Of a DNA stretch of 37,706 nt, positions 8,842 to 34,444 are shown piece by piece. The stretch is taken from positions 1 to 37,706 of the forward strand of contig CACXBF010000019.1 of NCBI GenBank assembly GCA_902765855.1, read 5' to 3'. The notes below the pieces were generated by a model that did not search any database, was not told the origin of the DNA, and worked only from the letters and a program-made list of their open reading frames with translations. This DNA is from an uncultured Ruminococcus sp. (GTDB lineage: Bacteria > Bacillota > Clostridia > Oscillospirales > Acutalibacteraceae). A program made the translations under genes and the position numbers. How positions within the stretch are numbered: the stretch's first letter is position 1; every line of letters starts with the position of its first letter.

Positions 8842-10515
8842 TCACTCCATTTCTGTAATCATATCGTCAACAGTTTTTCCCGGAGGAATCATCGGAAGAA
8901 CATTTTCGTCAGGGGAAATAACACAATCTACAATAACAGGCTTTTTAAGGTTAAATGCCTTTTCAAGAACACTTTCAACCTCGCTGTCATTGTGAACTCT
9001 CATACCATCAATGCCGAAAGCCTTTGCAAGTTCAACGAAATCAGTTGCTCTGTGAGGGTCAGTCTGAGAGAAACGATGTCCGTAGAAAAGCTTTTGCCAT
9101 TGACGAACCATTCCGAGAACAGAGTTATTCATAACAACAACCATAATCGGAAGATTGTATGATTTTAAAGTTACTGTTTCGTTAAGATTCATATGGAAGC
9201 TGCCGTCACCTGTAAAGAGTACGACACGCTTGTCAGGATTAGCAGTTTGAGCACCGATAGCAGCACCCATACCATATCCCATAGTACCAAGACCACCGGA
9301 AGTACACCATGTTCTCGGTTTCTCAAATTTATATTTCTGAGATACCCACATCTGATGTTGACCGACATCAGTTACTATAATATCATCAGCAGTTGTAAGC
9401 TTTTGAACAGCCTCTATGATATGGTAAGCGTGAGCGAAATCCTTTGAGTTATATTCAGGAGTCTTGTCAAATTGTGCTTTCCAATCTGAAATTTCCTTGA
9501 GCCATTCAGGATTGCTCTTGCTATCACAAAGAGCTGTAAGAGTTGTAAGAGTATCCTTTAAGTCACCGATAAGGCTAAACTTAGACTTAACATTCTTATT
9601 AATTTCTGCCTTATCAATATCCATATGAATAATTGTAGCATTTTCGCCGAATTTCTCTCTATCACCTGCAACTCTATCAGAGAATCTTGCACCTATCGCA
9701 ATGATAAGGTCAGCGTTGGCAGTTGTCTTACCTGTTTCGTAAGCACCGTGCATACCGAGAGTACCAAGGAAAAGCTTATGTGATGCTGGGAAACCGCCAA
9801 GGCCCATAACAGATGAGCATACAGGGCAGTCAATTTTTTCTGCAAACTTAATAAGCTGTTCAGTAGCTTCAGAGAGAAGAACACCACCGCCCATATAAAT
9901 CATAGGACGCTTAGCGTTTTTAATGGCTTGAGCAACAGCCTCAAATTCATAATTCTTTGATGAAGTTACATTCTCATAAGTACGAATTGGAGCGTGTTCA
10001 TATTCATAGCTTATTGCTGTAATATCTTTAGGAATATCAACGAGAACAGGGCCTTTTCTGCCAGAAGTAGCAATTCTGAAAGCCTTGCGGAGAATATTTG
10101 CAAGGTCAGCAATATCCTTTACAATAAAGTTATGCTTAGTGATTGGCAAAGTAATTCCTGTAATGTCAACTTCTTGGAAGCTATCACGAGAAAGCAAGTC
10201 AGTTGAAACATTACCTGTAATTGCAACCATAGGAATAGAATCCATATAAGCAGTAGCAAGACCGGTTACAAGGTTAGTTGCACCAGGACCGGAAGTTGCA
10301 ATAACAACACCAGGTTTTCCTGTGGTTCTTGCATAACCGTCTGCCGCATGAGAGGCACCCTGTTCGTGTGCTGTAAGGATATGCTTGATTTTGTCACTAT
10401 ACTTATAGAGTGCGTCATAAATATTAAGAACTGCACCGCCCGGATAGCCGAAAACAGTGTCAACACCCTGTTCGAGCAAACATTCTGCAATGATTTCTGC
10501 ACCTGTAAGCTTCAT
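8842..10515 (-). CDS. ilvB: Acetolactate synthase large (catalytic) subunit
   Basis: IlvB joins two pyruvates, or pyruvate and 2-ketobutyrate, in the first common step of valine, leucine and isoleucine synthesis. It needs ThDP, Mg and FAD. The 557-residue product shows the catalytic glutamate in LTAHEQGASHAADGYAR (near residue 48), the FAD-domain region, and the ThDP motif GDGSFHMNLNE...VVVMNN. The start at 10513-10515 is chosen because MKLTGAEII is the usual N-terminus and GGAGGAG lies upstream; the frame extends 14 codons further. It is preceded by a T-box leader and followed by ilvN. Confidence 0.97.
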   Translation of the reverse strand: MKLTGAEIIAECLLEQGVDTVFGYPGGAVLNIYDALYKYSDKIKHILTAHEQGASHAADGYARTTGKPGVVIATSGPGATNLVTGLATAYMDSIPMVAITGNVSTDLLSRDSFQEVDITGITLPITKHNFIVKDIADLANILRKAFRIATSGRKGPVLVDIPKDITAISYEYEHAPIRTYENVTSSKNYEFEAVAQAIKNAKRPMIYMGGGVLLSEATEQLIKFAEKIDCPVCSSVMGLGGFPASHKLFLGTLGMHGAYETGKTTANADLIIAIGARFSDRVAGDREKFGENATIIHMDIDKAEINKNVKSKFSLIGDLKDTLTTLTALCDSKSNPEWLKEISDWKAQFDKTPEYNSKDFAHAYHIIEAVQKLTTADDIIVTDVGQHQMWVSQKYKFEKPRTWCTSGGLGTMGYGMGAAIGAQTANPDKRVVLFTGDGSFHMNLNETVTLKSYNLPIMVVVMNNSVLGMVRQWQKLFYGHRFSQTDPHRATDFVELAKAFGIDGMRVHNDSEVESVLEKAFNLKKPVIVDCVISPDENVLPMIPPGKTVDDMITEME

Positions 10516-10583
10516 AATATATCTCCTCCATTTTATATGCTTAATATGTTTAAGCATAAAATTTTGTAAAAATAAGTAAAAAA

Positions 10584-10842
10584 ATAACCGTCATCTCTCA
10601 AAAGAGACGAAGGCTCATAAGGATATGGAACTTCGTTGTACCACTCTCTGAAAATTACATCTCGGCGATAGCCGTAAAATGTATGACGAAATAACGCTTG
10701 TCGTGCGTTTTTGCTTAATGCTCATAGAGTTTCAGCAAAACTGCTCAGCGGCGACCTTCATTCGAGTGCCGAACTGTCTTTCACCAACCGACAGTTCTCT
10801 TAAATTCGGCAATCAGCGAATTACTCCTCCGCATCATAGCAT
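10584..10842 (-). promoter_or_regulatory. T-box leader of ilvBN, probable leucine specifier
   Basis: The 260-nt leader has T-box parts in order: Stem I with AGAGAACTG..GGTTGGTGAAAG..CAGTTC and a CTC triplet right before GAATGAAGG (the specifier position, read as Leu); the T-box proper around AGAGTGGTACAACGAAG, which can pair with the tRNA acceptor end; and a terminator stem with TTATTTTTTT at 10584-10612. When uncharged tRNA-Leu binds, the antiterminator should form and ilvBN is transcribed. A CUC specifier is also used by the Bacillus subtilis ilv-leu leader. The T-box core is slightly off consensus. Confidence 0.8.
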
Positions 10843-10862
10843 TTAAAAATGTTACTTAATAT

Positions 10863-18183: not shown

Positions 18184-18212
18184 TTGACCTAAAAAAGAAA
18201 ACATGATATACT
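18184..18212 (+). promoter_or_regulatory. Promoter of the riboswitch-controlled B12 operon
   Basis: TTGACC (18184-18189) and TATACT (18207-18212) with a 17-bp spacer, placing the start site just before the riboswitch. Confidence 0.75.
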
Positions 18213-18224
18213 GAATTTGAATTG

Positions 18225-18330
18225 AATATCTTCGGACAGAACTGAGGGAAATCAGTGAAAATCTGATACAACCGCCATTACCGTATGTTTTGGTTTTCGC
18301 CAAGATTAAGTCGGGTCGCTCGCTGTCTGA
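18225..18330 (+). promoter_or_regulatory. Cobalamin-type riboswitch (variant)
   Basis: The core GAGGGAAATCAGTGAAAATC, then TGATACAACCGCC, follows the GGGAA..GGTG.AA.TC..ACAGCCCGCC pattern of cobalamin riboswitches. The later AGATTAAGTCGGGTCGCTCGC is a diverged version of the B12 box region. CGGACAG (18233-18239) pairs with CTGTCTG (18323-18329) to close the domain. A terminator stands 90 nt downstream, and the genes that follow carry transcobalamin-like domains, supporting B12 as ligand. It is divergent enough that a covariance-model search should confirm it. Confidence 0.75.
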
Positions 18331-18419
18331 TTTATAAACTTATTAATACTTTCGGGCATTTGGGAGAGTACAGAGTAAGGAGTTATTAAGCATTTAGCTT
18401 GATAGCTTGTTTTCTGTGT

Positions 18420-18453
18420 CAATTTGCATTTTGTGAATTGGCTTTTTTGTTTT
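18420..18453 (+). terminator. Intrinsic terminator, expression platform of the riboswitch
   Basis: A 9-bp stem (18420-18428 with 18432-18440, two wobble pairs) is followed by GGCTTTTTTGTTTT, 48 bp before the first gene. With B12 bound, transcription would stop here. Confidence 0.65.
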
Positions 18454-18500
18454 CCCTTTTCTCGAATTATTATAAAATCTTTTATAAGGGGAAAATTAAA

Positions 18501-19472
18501 ATGAAAGCAAAGAAAATCTTATGCTCTGCTTTGGCAGCAGCTCTTGCAGTAAGCTCATTCAGCACTTTTGCATTTGCTGATGAAGAAAAACAAATGTCTG
18601 TTACAGTAAGAATTGAGGGAATCAACAAGAATCTATACTATGATACTGTTGAAGTTCCTTATACAGGTGATAATCTTACAGTTCAGAATGCTCTCATGTA
18701 TGTTGATGAAAGAAATGATGATATTACTATCACAGGAGTTGAGAGTGGCTGGATAACTGCCGTTAACGACGACAAGCAAGCTACTTTCGGTGGCTGGGAC
18801 GGTTGGTTATATACAGTAAACGGAGTTTCTCCGACAGATACTGTCAATAACTATAAGCTTTCTGACGGCGACAGCGTTGTTCTTTATTACGGTGACCCAT
18901 ACGGCGTTGGTATGCAGTATCCTGAAGTTGACGCTTCTAAAATCAGCGAAGGTATTCTTACATTTACAAGCCAAGATACAACATATGACGCGGATTATAA
19001 CCCAATTATAAGCACAAACCCTGTAAAAGATGCAACTATTGAATGGGGTACAGATGGCGGCACTGTAAGCTACAAAACGGATGAAAATGGTTCTATCAAC
19101 ATTGAAGATAAGTATTTAACAGAAGGCAACCACTCTCTTGCTATAAGCAAGCTTAGCGAAAACGGTATTCCGCTTGTACTTCGTCTTGCGCCTGATTATG
19201 AAATTAATGTTCCTGAAAAATCCAATGAATCAAGTGTTGAAAGTTCAGAAGTAAGTCAGGAAAGTTCGGTTGAATCAAGCACAACTGAAAGTTCAAAATC
19301 AGAAGTAAGCACAGAATCTTCTGCCGAGCCAACAAGCACAGTATCTACAACATCTCAAGACGGTAAAGCACCATCAACCGGTGATTCATCAGCCATGACT
19401 GTTGTTGCTTTAACAACCGCTATGGCTTTTGCAGTAATCTTAATGACAAGAAAGAGAAACAATGAAAAATAA
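18501..19472 (+). CDS. Cell-surface DUF4430 (transcobalamin-like) protein with sortase-type tail
   Basis: The 323-residue product has a signal peptide (1-26, ending AFA before DEEK), a DUF4430 domain (about 30-131) with the hallmark GGWDGWLYTVNGVSP and the closing LSDGDSVVLYYG, a second beta-rich region (about 150-237) resembling a carboxypeptidase-like or Ig-like fold, a Ser/Glu-rich stalk (238-288), and a C-terminal APSTGD, hydrophobic helix and RKR tail, a variant of the LPxTG sorting signal. DUF4430 is the beta domain of transcobalamin and intrinsic factor. Placed right behind a cobalamin riboswitch, it is inferred to be a wall-attached corrinoid-binding protein. Start ATG has AAGGGG upstream; the longer open frame covers the terminator and is rejected. 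Confidence 0.85.
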   Translation: MKAKKILCSALAAALAVSSFSTFAFADEEKQMSVTVRIEGINKNLYYDTVEVPYTGDNLTVQNALMYVDERNDDITITGVESGWITAVNDDKQATFGGWDGWLYTVNGVSPTDTVNNYKLSDGDSVVLYYGDPYGVGMQYPEVDASKISEGILTFTSQDTTYDADYNPIISTNPVKDATIEWGTDGGTVSYKTDENGSINIEDKYLTEGNHSLAISKLSENGIPLVLRLAPDYEINVPEKSNESSVESSEVSQESSVESSTTESSKSEVSTESSAEPTSTVSTTSQDGKAPSTGDSSAMTVVALTTAMAFAVILMTRKRNNEK

Positions 19473-21384
19473 TTTTGCGAGTAGAATAATTTCAATTATG
19501 CTTCTTGCAGTTATATTGGCAGGGATTTTTATTCCTGCCAATTTTTGCATAACGGCAGAGGCAACATCTAATGATACAGAAAGCGTCATCGACGGCATAT
19601 TAAAATGGAAACATAATGGCTCGGCACAAAATCTTGCTGATGAAATAAGCGATAGTATGGGAAGTAGTATTTCCGATTGGTATGCAATTTCGCTTTCACG
19701 ATATAAATATAATATCAATTTTTCAAAATGTGTCAAATCTCTTGATAAATACACAAATTCCGCTGAAAATCTTCGTGCAACCGATATGCAGAGAATTGCT
19801 ATAACCTATACTGCTATGGGAAGTAAATCTGATTATATTAAAACTGCACTCAATGGTTCTATCGGTAAACTTGGAATTATGAGTTATGCCTACGGTCTTA
19901 TTATGCTTGATTGCGGAGCATACTACGGCAGTATGACACGAGATGAAATCATCAACAAAATTTTGTCTATGCAATTTTCTGATGGTGGCTGGGGACTTAT
20001 GCAAAATTCTGATGTCGATGTCACAGCTATGACTATTCAGGCTCTTGCAAGATATTATAAACATAGCGATGTCAAAACTGCCATTGATAAAGCCCTTAAT
20101 TACCTGTCAAAAAGGCAGCAGTCTGACGGTGATTTCAAAAGCTATGGCACTTCTAATGCAGAAAGTACTGCACAGGTTTTGCTTGCATTAAGCACTATGA
20201 AAATTAACTGCAATACCGACAGCCGATTCATCAAAAATGGAAATACGGTTTATGACGGACTCTTGAAATATCATAATTCTGATGGAAGTTTTTCTCATAC
20301 CTACGGCGGTGACAGCAACCAGCTTGCAACTGTTCAAGCTCTATATGCAACTATTTCACTTTGGAGATTAGAAAATGGAAAAACTGCTTTCTTTGAATTT
20401 GTCAGCAACAATATTCAAAGAGAAATCAGTACAAAACCTGAACCAAAGCCAAATAAAGATAATTCAAAGCCAAGTTCTTCAAGTTCTGTAAGCTCTAAGC
20501 CTAACAACTCAAGCAATAGTAGCACTTCAAGCTATTCTCAAACTTCTCAAATAAGCAAGCCAAGTCAAAATAGCCATACAAATTCAAGCATTTCAAGCAA
20601 AATTGAAAATTCAAAAGCTGAACTTTCAACAAACAACAAGCAAAATGTTGAAAACTCAGTTACAAGCAAATCTAAAAGTAGCGAAACTACTACCTTAGAA
20701 AGTTCAAAAGCTGAATCTATTAAAAATTCTAATATGGAAGAAATATCAGAACATAACAAAAAAAGCTCAAATCTTTCAAAATCAGAAAGTTCTGATATTG
20801 CTGAAACTCAAGCTGTAAATTATAATCTTATTATTGCTTTATGCTTATTAGGAATTTTCGTTATAATCTTTGTTGTGCTTATTATTCGTAAAAAGCTAAA
20901 CAAAACGAATATTATAGTTCTTGTTGCGTTATTTGCAGTTTTAACAGGCATTTCACTTACTATAAAGATTGAAACGCCAAATCAATACTACAATGAAACT
21001 TCGGACAATAAACAAAATACCAAGACAGTAACTATATCAATCTCTTGTAAAAATGCAATCGGAAAAACTGATAATAAAAAAATCCCTGAAAATGGAATTA
21101 TTCTTGATGATACAGAATTTTCAATTTCAGAGGGTGATACTGTTTTTGATGTGCTTGTTTCAGCAACGAAAAAAAATAAAATCCAAATTGATTATGATAG
21201 CTCAAACGAAACTGTATATGTAAAAGGAATAAATGGCTTATATGAATTTGATTGCGGAGAACTTTCTGGTTGGATGTATAAAGTAAATGGTGAAACACCG
21301 AACGTTGGCTGTTCGGGCTATAAGCTTAAAGACGGCGATGTAATAGAGTGGGCTTACACCGCTAATATCGGAAAGGATTTATAA
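19462..21384 (+). CDS. Membrane protein with alpha/alpha barrel plus DUF4430, intrinsic-factor-like
   Basis: The 640-residue product has a signal peptide (1-33); an alpha/alpha-barrel region (about 38-315) with terpenoid-cyclase/prenyltransferase-type repeats (QFSDGGWGLM 171-180, QQSDGDFKSYG 219-229, HNSDGSFSHTYGG 271-283); a Ser/Asn-rich linker (325-448); two membrane helices (454-475, 483-502) with RKKLNK between them; and a C-terminal DUF4430 domain (about 520-636) with SGWMYKVNGETP and LKDGDVIEW. The positive-inside rule puts both barrel and DUF4430 outside the cell. Animal intrinsic factor and transcobalamin use the same two folds to hold B12 between them. The start overlaps the previous gene by 11 bp and the stop overlaps the next start. 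Corrinoid binding is inferred from domains and context. Confidence 0.85.
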   Translation: MKNNFASRIISIMLLAVILAGIFIPANFCITAEATSNDTESVIDGILKWKHNGSAQNLADEISDSMGSSISDWYAISLSRYKYNINFSKCVKSLDKYTNSAENLRATDMQRIAITYTAMGSKSDYIKTALNGSIGKLGIMSYAYGLIMLDCGAYYGSMTRDEIINKILSMQFSDGGWGLMQNSDVDVTAMTIQALARYYKHSDVKTAIDKALNYLSKRQQSDGDFKSYGTSNAESTAQVLLALSTMKINCNTDSRFIKNGNTVYDGLLKYHNSDGSFSHTYGGDSNQLATVQALYATISLWRLENGKTAFFEFVSNNIQREISTKPEPKPNKDNSKPSSSSSVSSKPNNSSNSSTSSYSQTSQISKPSQNSHTNSSISSKIENSKAELSTNNKQNVENSVTSKSKSSETTTLESSKAESIKNSNMEEISEHNKKSSNLSKSESSDIAETQAVNYNLIIALCLLGIFVIIFVVLIIRKKLNKTNIIVLVALFAVLTGISLTIKIETPNQYYNETSDNKQNTKTVTISISCKNAIGKTDNKKIPENGIILDDTEFSISEGDTVFDVLVSATKKNKIQIDYDSSNETVYVKGINGLYEFDCGELSGWMYKVNGETPNVGCSGYKLKDGDVIEWAYTANIGKDL

Positions 21385-22244
21385 TGAGAGCTTTTTCAGA
21401 ACACAATTCTATTGCTATTTTTGTGCATTTTATGTTGACAATAATTATAGCGATGTTTATACAAAATCCAATAATATTACTGCTTGCCTTGTTTGGCTCA
21501 ATACTCTATTATGCTGTAACTTTCAGAAAAATCTCTGCAAAGACACTTATTTTTTGGATATTGCTTTTTTTACTGATTTCGCTTATAAATCCTATATTTT
21601 CGCACAAAGGCGAAACCGTTTTATTATTTATAAACGGAAAAGCTATAACCCTTGAGGCTCTTTTCTACGGCATAAATAACGGAATTATGATTCTTGCGGT
21701 TATGATTTGGTTTCTTGTTTTCTCGGAAATAATGACCTCAGATAAGGTTATGTATATCTTTGGAAAATTCAGTCCACGACTTGCACTTCTTGTATCAATG
21801 TCGCTGAGATATATTCCACTATATCGACAAAGGGCAAGTATTATCAACAATGCTCAAAAAACTATGGGCTTATATAAAGAAAGTAATATAGTCGATAATG
21901 TAAAGGGCGGTATGCGTGTAACCTCATCTTTAATAACTTGGTCGCTCGAAACTTCTGTTGATACTGCGGATTCCTTTGCTGCTCGTGGCGGTGAGTTAAA
22001 GCACAGAAATTCATTTTCGATTTTTAAATTTCGCAAAAATGATGTAGCTTTGATTATAATTTCTATCGTGCTATTTTCGGCAGTAATATCAGCACAGGCT
22101 ATGGGTATTCTTTCAGTTGATTATTATTCCTCAGGGAATTTTTTAAACAAGCTTAGTTTCGAGTTTATTGCTATTGTGGCATATTCGGCATATTTCATAC
22201 TATCAGTAATTCCATTCATACTTGAAATTTCAGCACGAAAATAG
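21384..22244 (+). CDS. EcfT-like energy-coupling transporter transmembrane subunit
   Basis: The 286-residue product is a polytopic membrane protein with about six helices and the EcfT/CbiQ cytoplasmic signature SLRYIPLYRQR...NNAQ (140-158) and ADSFAARGGEL (196-206), the latter holding an Ala-Arg-Gly coupling motif. The first coupling motif is degenerate (AQKTMG, 157-162). EcfT couples the ECF ATPases to a substrate-binding S component. Its ATG overlaps the preceding stop (TAATG), so it is the third gene of the riboswitch operon. No EcfA or S-component gene follows, and the next gene has its own promoter. It probably borrows shared ATPases from elsewhere in the genome. Confidence 0.85.
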   Translation: MRAFSEHNSIAIFVHFMLTIIIAMFIQNPIILLLALFGSILYYAVTFRKISAKTLIFWILLFLLISLINPIFSHKGETVLLFINGKAITLEALFYGINNGIMILAVMIWFLVFSEIMTSDKVMYIFGKFSPRLALLVSMSLRYIPLYRQRASIINNAQKTMGLYKESNIVDNVKGGMRVTSSLITWSLETSVDTADSFAARGGELKHRNSFSIFKFRKNDVALIIISIVLFSAVISAQAMGILSVDYYSSGNFLNKLSFEFIAIVAYSAYFILSVIPFILEISARK

Positions 22245-22251
22245 CTGTAAT

Positions 22252-22280
22252 TTGACAAGTAATCTACAGAGCGGTATAAT
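22252..22280 (+). promoter_or_regulatory. Promoter of mrnC
   Basis: TTGACA (22252-22257) and TATAAT (22275-22280) with a 17-bp spacer, a full-consensus sigma-A promoter right after the EcfT stop. It marks the end of the B12 operon. Confidence 0.85.
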
Positions 22281-31406: not shown

Positions 31407-31820
31407 ATGGATAATAACGAAATAAATAAAAACTTTGAGGAATGTGTTTCTTGCAACGATAAGGATACTTGCGAAGAAGTTTGTATTCACACTGATGCCG
31501 TTGTAAGGGCAAAAAATAATACGCCTGACCTCGATATTTTATTCTCTCTTGCAGAACTTTTTAAAATGTTTGGCGATACTACAAGAATCAGAATTATGTG
31601 TGCTTTATTTGAAAACGAACTTTGTGTATGCGATATTGCTGAGGTTCTTGGTATGGGACAATCGGCTGTTTCACATCAGCTAAGATTGTTAAGAACTGCT
31701 AATCTTGTAAAAGTAAGGCGTGACGGTAAATCATCTTTTTATTCACTTGATGATGAGCATATACAGAAAATTTATGAGCTTGGTTTAGAACACATCTTAG
31801 AAAAAAGAAAGGGAAATTGA
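31407..31820 (+). CDS. ArsR/SmtB family metal-sensing repressor, CadC type
   Basis: The 137-residue product has a winged helix-turn-helix domain (about 45-125) with DTTRIRIMCALFENELCVCDIAEVLGMGQSAVSHQLRLL. ELCVCD is the alpha-3 metal site of CadC-like sensors (Cd, Pb, Zn), and the N-terminal tail holds four more cysteines (ECVSCNDKDTCEEVC), as the CadC site needs. Metal binding releases the operator. Start ATG follows AGGAG at a somewhat long distance. Its stop is 2 bp before the ATPase start. I infer control by Cd, Zn or Pb rather than arsenite. Confidence 0.93.
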   Translation: MDNNEINKNFEECVSCNDKDTCEEVCIHTDAVVRAKNNTPDLDILFSLAELFKMFGDTTRIRIMCALFENELCVCDIAEVLGMGQSAVSHQLRLLRTANLVKVRRDGKSSFYSLDDEHIQKIYELGLEHILEKRKGN

Positions 31821-31822
31821 TT

Positions 31823-34444
31823 ATGAGTACAACAAGGAAATATACCCTTGAAGGTCTGGATTGTGCAAACTGTGCTATGAAAATCGAGGAAGCTATTGCA
31901 AAACTAAATGGCGTTGAGAATGTTTCTATTGTTTTTGCAACAAAAACGCTTTCTCTTAAAAGCATTCTTGATGAACACGAGCTTTTTAACACAATTAAAA
32001 AAACAATAGATTCTGTTGAGGATGGCGTTACTCTTATAGAAAAAACTAAATCTCATCACGAACACCATCACGATGATGATGAACATTGTGGTTGCGGGCA
32101 CGAACATCATGAACATAACCATTCACATGGCAAAACAAGAAAATATACTTTGCAGGACCTCGATTGTGCTCATTGTGCTATGAAAATTGAGGAAGCTATT
32201 GCAGGCCTCGACGGCGTTGATAATGTTATTGTTACATTTGCAACAAAAACTCTCGCACTTGAAAGTAATCTTGAGGAAAAGGAACTTTTCGACACCCTTC
32301 AAAAAACAATAGATTCTGTTGAAGACGGTGTTACTCTTATTGAGCAGAAAACAAAAAATAAACATTCACATGGCAAAACAAGAAAATATACTTTGCAGGA
32401 CCTCGATTGTGCTAATTGTGCTATGAAAATTGAAGAAGCTATCGCAGGTCTCGACGGCGTTGATAATGTTATTGTTACATTTGCAACAAAAACTCTTGCA
32501 CTTGAAAGTAGTCTTGATGAAAAGGAACTTTTTGACACCCTCCAAAAGACAATAGATTCTGTTGAGGACGGCGTTACTCTTATTGAGCAGAAAGATAACA
32601 AAAAAATCCATTCGGAGAAAAAATCTTTTAACAAGGATAAAATGATACTCATTGAAACCGGTATTGCAATCATTTTAACAGCAATAGGTCTTGCAGTTTC
32701 TGCTTTTATTTCACCTGAATGGATTGGAAAAATTATAATTGCTGTCGGTGTATGCTTCTCCGGATATCGTGTTGTAATAAAAGGTCTGAAATCTCTTGTC
32801 AAACTAAGACTTGACGAAAATGTACTTATGATGATTGCTGTTGTCGCTTCATGTATACTTGGCGAATTTTTTGAGGCTGCCGCCGTTACAATTCTTTTCA
32901 ACATCGGCGAATATATTGAAGATAAGGCTGTCAACAAGTCAAGAAAAGGTATTGAAGCACTTTCTATGATTCGTCCTGATAAGGCACATTTACTTAAATC
33001 TGATGGAACTACCCTTACAATAGACGCTGAAGAAATTGAGCCTGACGATACGATTATTGTAAATCCATATGAGCGTATTCCTCTTGACGGTGTTATAATT
33101 GATGGTGAAAGTTCTCTCGATACTTCCGCGCTCACCGGAGAAAGTGTTCCAAGAAATGTTGCAAAAAATTCAGATGTTATGTCTGGTATGATGAATCTTG
33201 AAGGCGTTCTTACTATAAAAGTAACAAACTCTTGTGAAAATTCTGCGGCATCTCGTATTCTTAAACTTGTTGAGGAAAGTTCCGCACAAAAGGGCAATTC
33301 GGAAAAATTCATAAGCCGTTTTGCAAAGGTTTATACTCCGATAGTATTTTTGATGGCGTTGGTTCTTGCTATAGTTCCTCCACTTATCGGTTTAGGTGAT
33401 TTCACAACATTTATAAATCGTGCATTAGTATTCCTGGTTGCATCTTGCCCTTGTGCATTGGTTATCAGTGTTCCGCTCGGTTTCTACTCCGGCATAGGTT
33501 CGGCATCTAAAAATGGCGTTCTTATAAAAGGTGGTAAATTTATTGAGGCTATTTCTAAAGTAAATACTGTTGCTTTCGATAAAACCGGAACTCTTACAAA
33601 GGGTGAACTTGCTGTTGCCAATGTAAAACTTCTTGGCAAAATGTCTGAAGATGAAGTTCTTTCTATTGCGGCTTCTGCTGAAGAATACTCCTCTCACCCA
33701 TCGGCTCTTGCTATCAAAAAAGCTGCCGAAAAACTTCCTAAGGTTACGCTTACTGACCACAAAGAAATTGCCGGTAAGGGCGTTTCTGCACAATATAACG
33801 GCAAGGCTGTTCTCTGCGGAAACAGAAAACTCTTTAATGACAGTAACCTAAAGAGCGGTATAATATATCTATCTGTTGATGGAAAAATTGTCGGCGAAAT
33901 TGAAACAAGTGATGAAATCCGTGAGGATACAAAGGCTACACTTGATAATCTAAAATCTTTGGGCATTGAACATATAGTTATGCTCACAGGTGACGGTGAA
34001 ATTGCCGCAAAGAAAATTGCTGATGAGTGTGGTTTAAGTGAATTCAAACATTCCCTTATGCCTGAAGAAAAAGCCGAAACTGTTAAAGAGCTTCAAAAGA
34101 ACGGTAAGGTTATCTTCGTTGGTGACGGAATAAACGACGCGCCTGTACTCGCTGCTGCTGACTGCGGATTCGCTATGGGACTTGGTAGCGATGCCGCTAT
34201 TGAATCTGCGGACGCTGTTCTGACAAGCGGCACTCTTGCAAAGTTGCCTACTGCAATTAAAATAAGTAGAAGCGCTATGAAAACTGTTCGCTTTAATATT
34301 GCATTTGCACTTGCACTTAAAGCTATTGTTCTTATACTTGCTGCATTTGGATATGCGCCGATGTGGATTGCTGTTATAGCTGATACCGGACTTTCCGTTC
34401 TTACAGTTCTCAATGCTGCAAGACTTTTAAGAAAAAAATATTAA
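31823..34444 (+). CDS. P1B-type heavy-metal exporting ATPase (CadA/ZntA type) with three HMA domains
   Basis: The 873-residue product has three N-terminal HMA domains, each with DCA(N/H)CAMK (about 4-76, 105-178, 185-255), a His/Asp-rich segment between HMA1 and HMA2 (HHEHHHDDDEHCGCGHEHHEHNH, about 77-100), then the ATPase core: SALTGES (actuator), the transport-site CPC in ASCPCALVIS, the phosphorylation site DKTGTLTKG, SSHPSA and GDGINDAPVLAAADCG. CPC with this His-rich tail fits export of Zn, Cd or Pb. HMA2 and HMA3 are nearly identical, showing recent duplication. It overlaps the repressor's operon and ends at a strong terminator. Start at the ATG 31823. Confidence 0.95.
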   Translation: MSTTRKYTLEGLDCANCAMKIEEAIAKLNGVENVSIVFATKTLSLKSILDEHELFNTIKKTIDSVEDGVTLIEKTKSHHEHHHDDDEHCGCGHEHHEHNHSHGKTRKYTLQDLDCAHCAMKIEEAIAGLDGVDNVIVTFATKTLALESNLEEKELFDTLQKTIDSVEDGVTLIEQKTKNKHSHGKTRKYTLQDLDCANCAMKIEEAIAGLDGVDNVIVTFATKTLALESSLDEKELFDTLQKTIDSVEDGVTLIEQKDNKKIHSEKKSFNKDKMILIETGIAIILTAIGLAVSAFISPEWIGKIIIAVGVCFSGYRVVIKGLKSLVKLRLDENVLMMIAVVASCILGEFFEAAAVTILFNIGEYIEDKAVNKSRKGIEALSMIRPDKAHLLKSDGTTLTIDAEEIEPDDTIIVNPYERIPLDGVIIDGESSLDTSALTGESVPRNVAKNSDVMSGMMNLEGVLTIKVTNSCENSAASRILKLVEESSAQKGNSEKFISRFAKVYTPIVFLMALVLAIVPPLIGLGDFTTFINRALVFLVASCPCALVISVPLGFYSGIGSASKNGVLIKGGKFIEAISKVNTVAFDKTGTLTKGELAVANVKLLGKMSEDEVLSIAASAEEYSSHPSALAIKKAAEKLPKVTLTDHKEIAGKGVSAQYNGKAVLCGNRKLFNDSNLKSGIIYLSVDGKIVGEIETSDEIREDTKATLDNLKSLGIEHIVMLTGDGEIAAKKIADECGLSEFKHSLMPEEKAETVKELQKNGKVIFVGDGINDAPVLAAADCGFAMGLGSDAAIESADAVLTSGTLAKLPTAIKISRSAMKTVRFNIAFALALKAIVLILAAFGYAPMWIAVIADTGLSVLTVLNAARLLRKKY
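32121..32592 (+). repeat. 243-bp in-frame tandem repeat coding HMA2 and HMA3
   Basis: 32121-32363 and 32364-32592 are nearly identical at the DNA level, from ATTCACATGGCAAAACAAG to the ATTGAGCAGAAA end. They code for 81-residue units with only a few differences (AHC/ANC, NLEE/SLDE). HMA1 is an older, more diverged copy. Confidence 0.9.

Follow-up and report, generated by a model that had tools for sequence, protein, structure and literature searches.

A divergent cobalamin riboswitch and carrier-like surface proteins in a predicted vitamin B12 capture operon of an uncultured Ruminococcus

Introduction

Does an uncultured Ruminococcus collect vitamin B12 with surface proteins built like the B12 carriers of animals, and does it pass the vitamin to a dedicated transporter? 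This question is raised by three overlapping genes and their leader at positions 18184-22244 of a 37,706-nucleotide stretch of DNA from this organism (contig CACXBF010000019.1, assembly GCA_902765855.1, forward strand), the whole of which we call the window. Surface capture of B12 followed by hand-over to a transporter is known from the Bacteroides lipoproteins BtuG and BtuH, which differ from the proteins considered here in having other folds and in working at an outer membrane with the TonB-dependent BtuB; B12 capture by Gram-positive gut bacteria is less known than this Bacteroides route. An earlier reading of the locus, made from its letters alone (the sequence-only reading), had proposed an operon that captures corrinoids at the cell surface and delivers them to an energy-coupling factor (ECF) transporter. 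In our computational analysis this proposed function, still a prediction, is well supported by the riboswitch, by the predicted folds and by a CbrT-like S-component. We conclude that the locus is a real B12 capture operon, a variant of a kind predicted in 2007, and that the operon very probably serves the capture and import of a corrinoid, most likely vitamin B12, and is off when the cell has sufficient B12. Gene order, predicted folds, riboswitch conservation and co-occurrence of the parts are the observations on which we build.

Three overlapping genes follow a promoter, a riboswitch and a terminator

The locus comprises the following features, numbered by window position.

18184-22244, forward strand: B12 capture locus, with promoter, riboswitch, terminator and three overlapping genes
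18184-18212, forward strand: sigma-70-like promoter, TTGACC-17-TATACT with an extended -10 (TG), from a motif scan
18220-18388, forward strand: putative cobalamin (AdoCbl-type) riboswitch, aptamer core 18232-18330, from RF01482, covariation and our own model R1
18418-18442, forward strand: intrinsic terminator hairpin followed by six T, between the riboswitch and gene 1, from a scan
18501-19472, forward strand: gene 1, 323 amino acids, secreted DUF4430 protein
19462-21384, forward strand: gene 2, 640 amino acids, with signal peptide, barrel, Ser/Thr-rich linker, two membrane helices and beta-grasp DUF4430
21384-22244, forward strand: gene 3, 286 amino acids, EcfT-type transmembrane subunit

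The promoter, cobalamin-type riboswitch, terminator and three overlapping genes of the sequence-only reading were all located in the window, and its interval was right, the promoter beginning at the first position and the stop codon of gene 3 ending at the last. Genes 1 and 2 overlap by 11 bases and genes 2 and 3 by one. The nearest named relative found for gene 2, among records that may exclude those very near the window's own, is that of Pseudoruminococcus massiliensis (90% identical). The promoter hexamers TTGACC and TATACT are identical in two relatives of the same genus; the terminator is kept in the closest of them with two bases changed, and in the second, where the promoter is kept, the scan detected no terminator. 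A perfect promoter (TTGACA-17-TATAAT) stands at window positions 22252-22280 on the forward strand, in the gap that separates gene 3 from the following gene (start 22296), and the operon therefore probably ends at gene 3.

The leader RNA is placed in the cobalamin riboswitch class by several lines of comparison

The Rfam AdoCbl model RF01482 matches the leader at 18220-18388 with 40.1 bits where the gathering score is 50 (expectation value, E, 4.5e-6 for a search of 411 bases), and this is its single match at E ≤ 0.01 in the organism's own genome (E 6.2e-6). At Rfam gathering scores the window yields one match only, a T-box elsewhere, and no riboswitch at 18220-18388; RF00174 has 0 matches in the genome. 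Across 79 genomes (this one and 78 relatives), RF01482 gave 0 matches over its gathering score and a match at E ≤ 0.01 in 16 genomes, and RF00174 gave a match at E ≤ 0.01 in 47, with 44 over the cut-off.

Because a hand-made regular expression for the riboswitch matched none of 80 loci, we used a covariance model instead. A first alignment of 13 riboswitches gave 7 consensus pairs only; the four with an extra hairpin were dropped and nine kept, and five further candidate sites lie outside the alignment. The nine pieces were trimmed by hand to the complementary outer stem, a choice that favours that helix, and with this reservation both sides change in 12 of the 16 pairs, and paired cells reach 91.7%, against a mean of 70.0% in shuffled sequences, none of 500 shuffles attaining the observed level; sliding the partners gave 49.3% at most.

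The covariance model built from the nine leaders of such operons, R1, gives the window riboswitch, itself a training sequence, 89.4 bits. We searched R1 against 80 named gene-2 loci (945,898 bases, both strands), which are the best 80 of at least 555 confirmed candidates, so that they favour the fused form of gene 2 described below, and many of which are cut by contig ends. All 61 matches at E ≤ 1 lay on the gene-2 strand. At E ≤ 0.001 there were matches at 55 of the 80 loci, all 55 upstream of gene 2 on the same strand at a median distance of 1304 bases; where 2.5 kb or more of sequence before gene 2 was available, the count was 48 of 66, or 43 of 61 after removal of five loci that are, or equal, training sequences. 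In a set of 39 other sources (the window, 37 regions surrounding gene-2-like places in the first relatives, and locus L079), R1 matched 23 times at E ≤ 1; 16 of these matches reached E ≤ 0.001, and seven of those are training sequences.

Some of the sites that R1 detects ahead of related operons score over the RF00174 gathering score (for example at loci L041, L043 and L060), and the window riboswitch has a conserved core and covarying helices in common with clear members of the cobalamin class (Rfam clan CL00101). Among the genomes of 50 of the 80 named loci, 37 have an RF00174 match; in some, such as those of L086 and L087, the coordinates place the strong match away from the operon, whose own upstream site scores 21-23 bits. 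When RF01482 and RF00174 results from the 79 genomes were pooled into 65 places (two of them, in genome G005, look like copies of each other), 28 of the 65 shared the strand of, and lay no more than 6 kb upstream from, one of 45 gene-2-like places, that is, matches to gene 2 or one of its domains kept from 73 rows, with further pieces and neighbours dropped. Because of the RF01482 match, the covariation and the R1 matches upstream of gene 2 in relatives, we assign the leader RNA, on comparative sequence evidence, to the cobalamin riboswitch class as a divergent but real member. The covariance-model check that the earlier reading had called for thus came out mixed: a genome-wide RF01482 match and covarying helices speak for that class, and the score under the gathering score and the lack of an RF00174 match in this genome speak against it.

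A weak match to the uxuA RNA (RF03061; 29.1 bits against 66.8) at 18335-18402 on the forward strand overlaps the 3' part of the riboswitch and the expression platform; it may be due to chance or to shared expression-platform sequence.

Genes 1 and 2 are predicted to adopt folds of animal B12 carriers

The domains of the two surface proteins were delimited as follows.

18588-18893, forward strand: gene 1 beta-grasp domain (amino acids 30-131), from Pfam DUF4430 and a model with a TM-score of 0.71 against 5no0, by target length
18918-19214, forward strand: gene 1 second beta-rich domain (amino acids 140-238), from the model
19368-19469, forward strand: gene 1 sortase-type anchor APSTG, hydrophobic helix and basic tail, from sequence, model and sub-cut-off profiles
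19570-20397, forward strand: gene 2 alpha/alpha barrel (amino acids 37-312), mostly above 90 in predicted local distance difference test (pLDDT), its predicted fold matching transcobalamin and intrinsic factor and also terpene cyclases
20398-20817, forward strand: gene 2 linker (amino acids 313-452), largely disordered in the model, Ser/Thr at 53 of 140 residues
20821-20961, forward strand: gene 2 membrane hairpin, helices at amino acids 454-475 and 481-500 with loop RKKLN, from model and sequence
21016-21381, forward strand: gene 2 beta-grasp DUF4430 (amino acids 519-640), with a post-helix insert at amino acids 576-590 and invariant Tyr586, from Pfam, model and alignment

Gene 1 encodes a DUF4430 protein with a putative sortase-type tail, in line with the sequence-only reading. 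It matches DUF4430 with E 1.7e-10 and has a Ser/Thr stalk before its putative wall anchor, in which the motif APSTG (amino acids 290-294) is followed by a helix and the tail RKRNNEK; sortase profiles match it only below their cut-offs. A motif of the form [LNSIVAT]PxTG occurs within the last 70 residues of 35 of 56 gene-1 counterparts. When the gene 1 model (47 sequences) was compared with the PDB, ranks 1-6 were transcobalamin and rank 7 was 3u7z, a Ruminococcus gnavus protein titled putative metal binding.

Gene 2 matches DUF4430 with E 1.6e-23 and the terpene-cyclase/prenyltransferase barrel with E 5.1e-7. Its AlphaFold2 model, made from an alignment of 65 sequences (its own and 64 of 71 eligible relatives), has a pLDDT mostly above 90 in the barrel and DUF4430 and mostly below 50 in the stalk, a linker whose length ranges from 30 to 173 amino acids across the 65 sequences. 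Because of the signal peptide, the helices and the basic RKK loop, both domains are expected to lie outside the cell. A Foldseek comparison of the gene 2 model with the PDB placed transcobalamin (12) or intrinsic factor (1) at ranks 1-13, with E 1.7e-7 to 1.1e-5. Further down, at rank 41, came 5no0, the human transcobalamin beta domain in isolation, with a TM-score of 0.75 by its own length, a root-mean-square deviation (rmsd) of 2.5 Å and 21% identity. Structure prediction therefore led from both surface proteins to animal B12 carriers, as the earlier reading had anticipated.

Its further idea, that one bacterial protein unites the folds of the animal carriers, holds for the predicted fold of both domains and less well for the barrel's sequence. 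In sequence, the barrel resembles terpene cyclases more closely than it does the animal carriers, its best solved relatives being squalene-hopene and drimenyl diphosphate cyclases, and it is like intrinsic factor in predicted fold only. Class II terpene cyclases carry a DxDD motif (DxDDTA). The corresponding stretch of the barrel is D184-V-D186-V-T188 (DVDVTA, amino acids 184-189), in which D186 and T188 are invariant across the 65 sequences and V187 is present in 63 of them.

The DUF4430 domain of gene 2 also has the detail that sets transcobalamin apart among beta-grasp (SLBB) domains. The transcobalamin clade is defined by a beta-hairpin inserted after the helix, and an aromatic or hydrophobic residue conserved in that insert contacts the cobalamin base in transcobalamin, according to the available text of two surveys (PMC1796856, PMC1949818). 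In the gene 2 model a helix at 561-571 is followed by strands at 576-580 and 585-590 and then by a core strand at 603-608. Tyr586, present in all 65 sequences, lies inside this insert and may correspond to the transcobalamin position.

We also observed a weak match of gene 2 to NCBIfam NF053823, the SCO2321 membrane protein family (32.9 bits against a cut-off of 300), which may be a distant counterpart.

A CbrT-like ECF transporter accompanies the surface proteins

Gene 3 matches the CbiQ family with E 2.4e-9, CbiQ being a general family name for EcfT proteins, and by context it is CbrV-like. The typical operon of relatives runs from one or more surface proteins through a DUF4430 membrane protein and EcfT to a fused double ECF ATPase (~540 amino acids) and an S-component (~228 amino acids). 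A survey of EcfT and barrel-DUF4430 neighbourhoods, as the earlier reading had suggested, found on the gene-2 strand of the 80 named loci an EcfT at 57, an ABC ATPase (by motif) at 64 and a CbrT-like S-component at 60.

The window is without genes for the fused ECF ATPase and the S-component, and both adjoin each other on another contig of the same genome, C13. The fused ATPase there (EcfAA') matches that of a relative with E 8.6e-154. The best PDB match of the S-component is 6fnp_A, with E 1.2e-11, the second best reaching 0.23. 6FNP is ECF-CbrT, and the CbrT of L. delbrueckii was shown to bind and import cobalamin and cobinamide (PMC5997447, available text). The proposed link to an ECF transporter is thereby strengthened from two sides, through the closeness of the C13 S-component to CbrT and through the EcfT, fused ATPase and S-component in many relatives' operons, and the EcfT of gene 3 would form one complex with the EcfAA' and S-component of C13. 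The names CbrT, CbrU and CbrV are in use for such a transporter (PMC6593275, PMC6722938; available text).

The C13 locus (L079:8725-11012) yielded no riboswitch with filters off, the best score being 13.4 bits (E 0.097). Because its S-component and ATPase have no detectable riboswitch, only the capture proteins and EcfT would be B12-controlled in this genome. The S-component stands apart from gene 2 in all three genomes of the genus examined, our own included, lying in the other two ~100 kb off on one contig or on another contig; in four genomes from four other genera it stands beside gene 2.

The membrane hairpin of gene 2 looks like a fusion point

Some relatives encode the barrel and the membrane DUF4430 as two adjacent genes. 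At locus L055, residue 3 of the small protein aligns with gene 2 residue 481, so that it starts in the hairpin loop, and the neighbouring barrel protein ends in a hydrophobic helix and a basic tail, with no sortase motif. At L032, L037, L042 and L065, the barrel protein ends in a PxTG-type motif, a helix and a basic tail. Since the break in split relatives falls there, the hairpin has the appearance of a join between two membrane helices, one from the C-terminus of a wall-type barrel protein and the other from the N-terminus of the DUF4430 protein encoded downstream.

The gene before EcfT was of the fused form in 59 of 76 EcfT genes, split in 11 and other in 6, so that a DUF4430 gene directly precedes EcfT in 70 of the 76, a set in which at least four proteins are counted twice, identical in both locus sets through shared contigs. 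The fused form is enriched here because resemblance to gene 2 was the basis on which the named loci were picked. In a tree built from 66 EcfT proteins (62 different), with an uncertain root and four rows on long branches, the fused or split label changes 4 times (bootstrap 3-4), and at least two of the changes are forced by well-supported branches. These label changes indicate that fusion or fission occurred more than once.

Around the EcfT core or the riboswitch the surface modules themselves vary among relatives, and include very large barrel proteins, barrels with a wall-anchor motif and beta-propeller-like proteins (L037, L038, L042, L057, L058, L060, L061 and L065).

The genome has a candidate use for B12 and probably no usual route to it

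Our searches of the organism's own genome covered PF02310, CbiF, CobS and CbiM. The B12-binding domain PF02310 has one match, in a MetH-like protein of which 622 of 795 residues were scanned (metH E 1.4e-117). No CbiF was found over the cut-off, two weaker matches being CobA-type and RsmI; CobS had no match, where a control search found CobS in 10 of 14 genomes; and CbiM had no match. Judging by these profiles, the genome probably lacks the usual pathways for building the corrin ring and for completing cobinamide. With no CbiF over the cut-off and no CobS, complete B12 is therefore the likeliest useful ligand.

A capture and hand-over model and its alternatives

We propose that low intracellular cobalamin would allow the riboswitch to let transcription through the terminator. 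Gene 1 would then display a transcobalamin-type beta-grasp domain on the cell wall, and gene 2 would hold an intrinsic-factor-like barrel outside on a long flexible stalk, with a second beta-grasp domain beside the membrane, joined via the membrane hairpin. A corrinoid may be clamped between barrel and beta-grasp domains, as in transcobalamin, and handed to the CbrT-type S-component, to be imported by an ECF transporter presumably made up of the gene 3 EcfT, the fused EcfAA' ATPase and that S-component. The exact path of B12 among two beta-grasp domains and a barrel is an interesting question. One tentative and rather doubtful answer is a two-stage relay, in which the barrel on its ~140-residue tether closes on B12 with the gene 1 domain at the outer face and then swings to the membrane domain of its own chain, loading the CbrT-type S-component; the hairpin would have arisen by fusing a wall-type barrel protein to a downstream membrane beta-grasp protein, perhaps more than once, making a passive wall receptor into a transporter-attached arm.

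Several results weigh against the capture of B12 by carrier-like proteins under riboswitch control. On the side of regulation, the RF01482 score of the leader lies below the gathering score; 18 of the 66 loci with enough upstream DNA have no R1 match at E ≤ 0.001 (six of the 18 have one between E 0.002 and 0.4); 17 of the 45 gene-2-like places in the 79 genomes have no riboswitch upstream, 15 with no match on the contig and two with one on the other strand; and in this genome the ATPase and S-component sit on a separate contig without a detectable riboswitch. On the side of structure, the full-chain rmsd is 10.6-17.3 Å over the first 13 PDB matches of gene 2, and the model therefore leaves the B12-bound domain arrangement unreproduced. 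In PDB searches with profiles made from every second sequence (33 of 65), DUF4430 found no B12 carrier at E ≤ 10, and the barrel found terpene cyclases and no animal carriers. The DVDVTA stretch is reminiscent of DxDD, a likeness that we take as a probable sign of ancestry and that tells against a simple intrinsic-factor reading. Finally, the MetH-like fragment scores below the cut-off of the metH model.

Uptake of cobalt or nickel would agree with the Pfam label of gene 3, CbiQ, cobalt transport, but this is the family name of EcfT proteins in general. Cobalt transporters under B12 riboswitches do exist, as with cbiMNQO of C. difficile (PMC11477304, available text). We rejected cobalt uptake on account of the CbrT-kind S-component, the B12-carrier fold predicted for both surface proteins and the lack of a CbiM match in the genome, and we regard metal uptake as hardly credible. 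It is improbable that the barrel is an enzyme or receptor for another hydrophobic ligand, descended from terpene cyclases, with corrinoid bound by the DUF4430 domains only. Such a role would suit its sequence likeness to squalene-hopene and drimenyl diphosphate cyclases and the retained D184-V-D186-V-T188, close to DxDD, but another residue stands in place of the motif's last Asp, gene 2 encodes a signal peptide, B12 carriers are the best matches of the complete modelled chain, and a toroid with a beta-grasp domain is the carrier architecture.

The wall-anchor-type tail of gene 1, and the wide differences in surface modules among relatives, from barrels to beta-propeller-like proteins, would also fit a store of B12 on the wall, or a grab of a public good that deprives competitors, with no direct hand-over to a transporter. 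We consider this very improbable: the gene for the membrane beta-grasp domain overlaps that for EcfT by one base here, and a DUF4430 gene stands immediately before EcfT in nearly all of the EcfT genes counted above. The same apparatus might instead have as its main ligand a precursor or part of B12 (cobinamide, another corrinoid or alpha-ribazole), which we judge unlikely. In favour of a precursor, L. delbrueckii CbrT carries cobinamide as well as cobalamin (PMC5997447, available text), a review gives cbrUVT as an uptake system for cobyrinate diamide (PMC8123684), and control by a riboswitch leaves the imported form unspecified. Against it, completion of a precursor looks unlikely in a genome with no CobS match and no CbiF over the cut-off (CobU and CobT lay outside the search), and the invariant Tyr586 belongs to the insert which, in transcobalamin, makes stacking contact with the base of a complete cobalamin (PMC1796856, available text). 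Capture and import of complete B12 remains the reading that we prefer.

Relation to known systems

Burroughs, Balaji, Iyer and Aravind reported in 2007 that low-GC Gram-positives have proteins in which an alpha/alpha-toroid is fused to a transcobalamin-type beta-grasp (SLBB) domain, that some of these bear anchor motifs, and that a paralogous second beta-grasp gene and CbiO/CbiQ share their operon; they predicted a role in scavenging B12 and suggested low-GC Gram-positives as the source of the B12 carriers of animals (PMC1796856, available text). The proteins studied here agree with those toroid-SLBB proteins in the same two domains, which occur there in this order too, in signal peptides, in an anchor motif on some, in a second SLBB gene and in an operon with CbiQ (EcfT) and CbiO (ATPase). 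The sequence-only reading's belief that the combination was undescribed therefore does not stand, barrel-DUF4430 fusions with CbiQ/CbiO and the scavenging prediction being already in that paper (PMC1796856). The present system goes beyond the available text of the 2007 description, figures aside, in the membrane hairpin between barrel and SLBB, the cobalamin riboswitch and the CbrT-type S-component; the word "riboswitch" occurs 0 times in the main text of that paper. The available text of the literature searched, with regulon databases outside its scope, holds no report of a riboswitch, a CbrT link or a hairpin fusion for these proteins, and within it three points look new: regulation by a riboswitch, the connection to CbrT, and a hairpin that serves as a fusion point and has changed more than once.

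With ECF-CbrT (CbrTUV; PMC5997447, available text) the system has in common a CbrT-related S-component, an EcfT and ECF ATPases, and it differs from that of L. delbrueckii in that relatives here have EcfT and the fused double ATPase in the same operon, together with surface proteins. In lactobacilli an "Additional lipoprotein component of putative cobalamin ECF transporter" has been annotated (PMC9963975, available text). This is possibly a split counterpart, as a small membrane-anchored or lipoprotein-like DUF4430 adjoins EcfT in several relatives; to judge by its name, the lactobacillar protein has no barrel fused to it.

Transcobalamin, haptocorrin and intrinsic factor of animals resemble gene 2 in having an alpha/alpha barrel followed by a transcobalamin-type beta-grasp domain, and they are the best structural matches of the predicted model. 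The animal carriers are soluble, whereas a long stalk and two membrane helices separate the domains here, and the likeness in sequence is too weak for a profile search. The locus helps to define a set of surface proteins, marked by a riboswitch and spread over dozens of genomes (Ruminococcus, Oscillospiraceae and relatives), with a named transporter partner, and offers clear constructs with which to ask whether human B12 carrier folds serve the same purpose at the surface of bacteria. Should these proteins bind B12, that would bear on the 2007 proposal of a bacterial origin of the animal carriers and on competition for B12 in the gut.

Other features of the window

A T-box leader (RF00230, 101 bits) lies at window positions 10600-10846 on the reverse strand, upstream of an apparent acetolactate synthase gene at 8842-10557. 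At 31817-34444 on the forward strand, following a gene for an ArsR-like regulator, lies what by eye seems to be a heavy-metal P-type ATPase with three N-terminal metal-binding domains.

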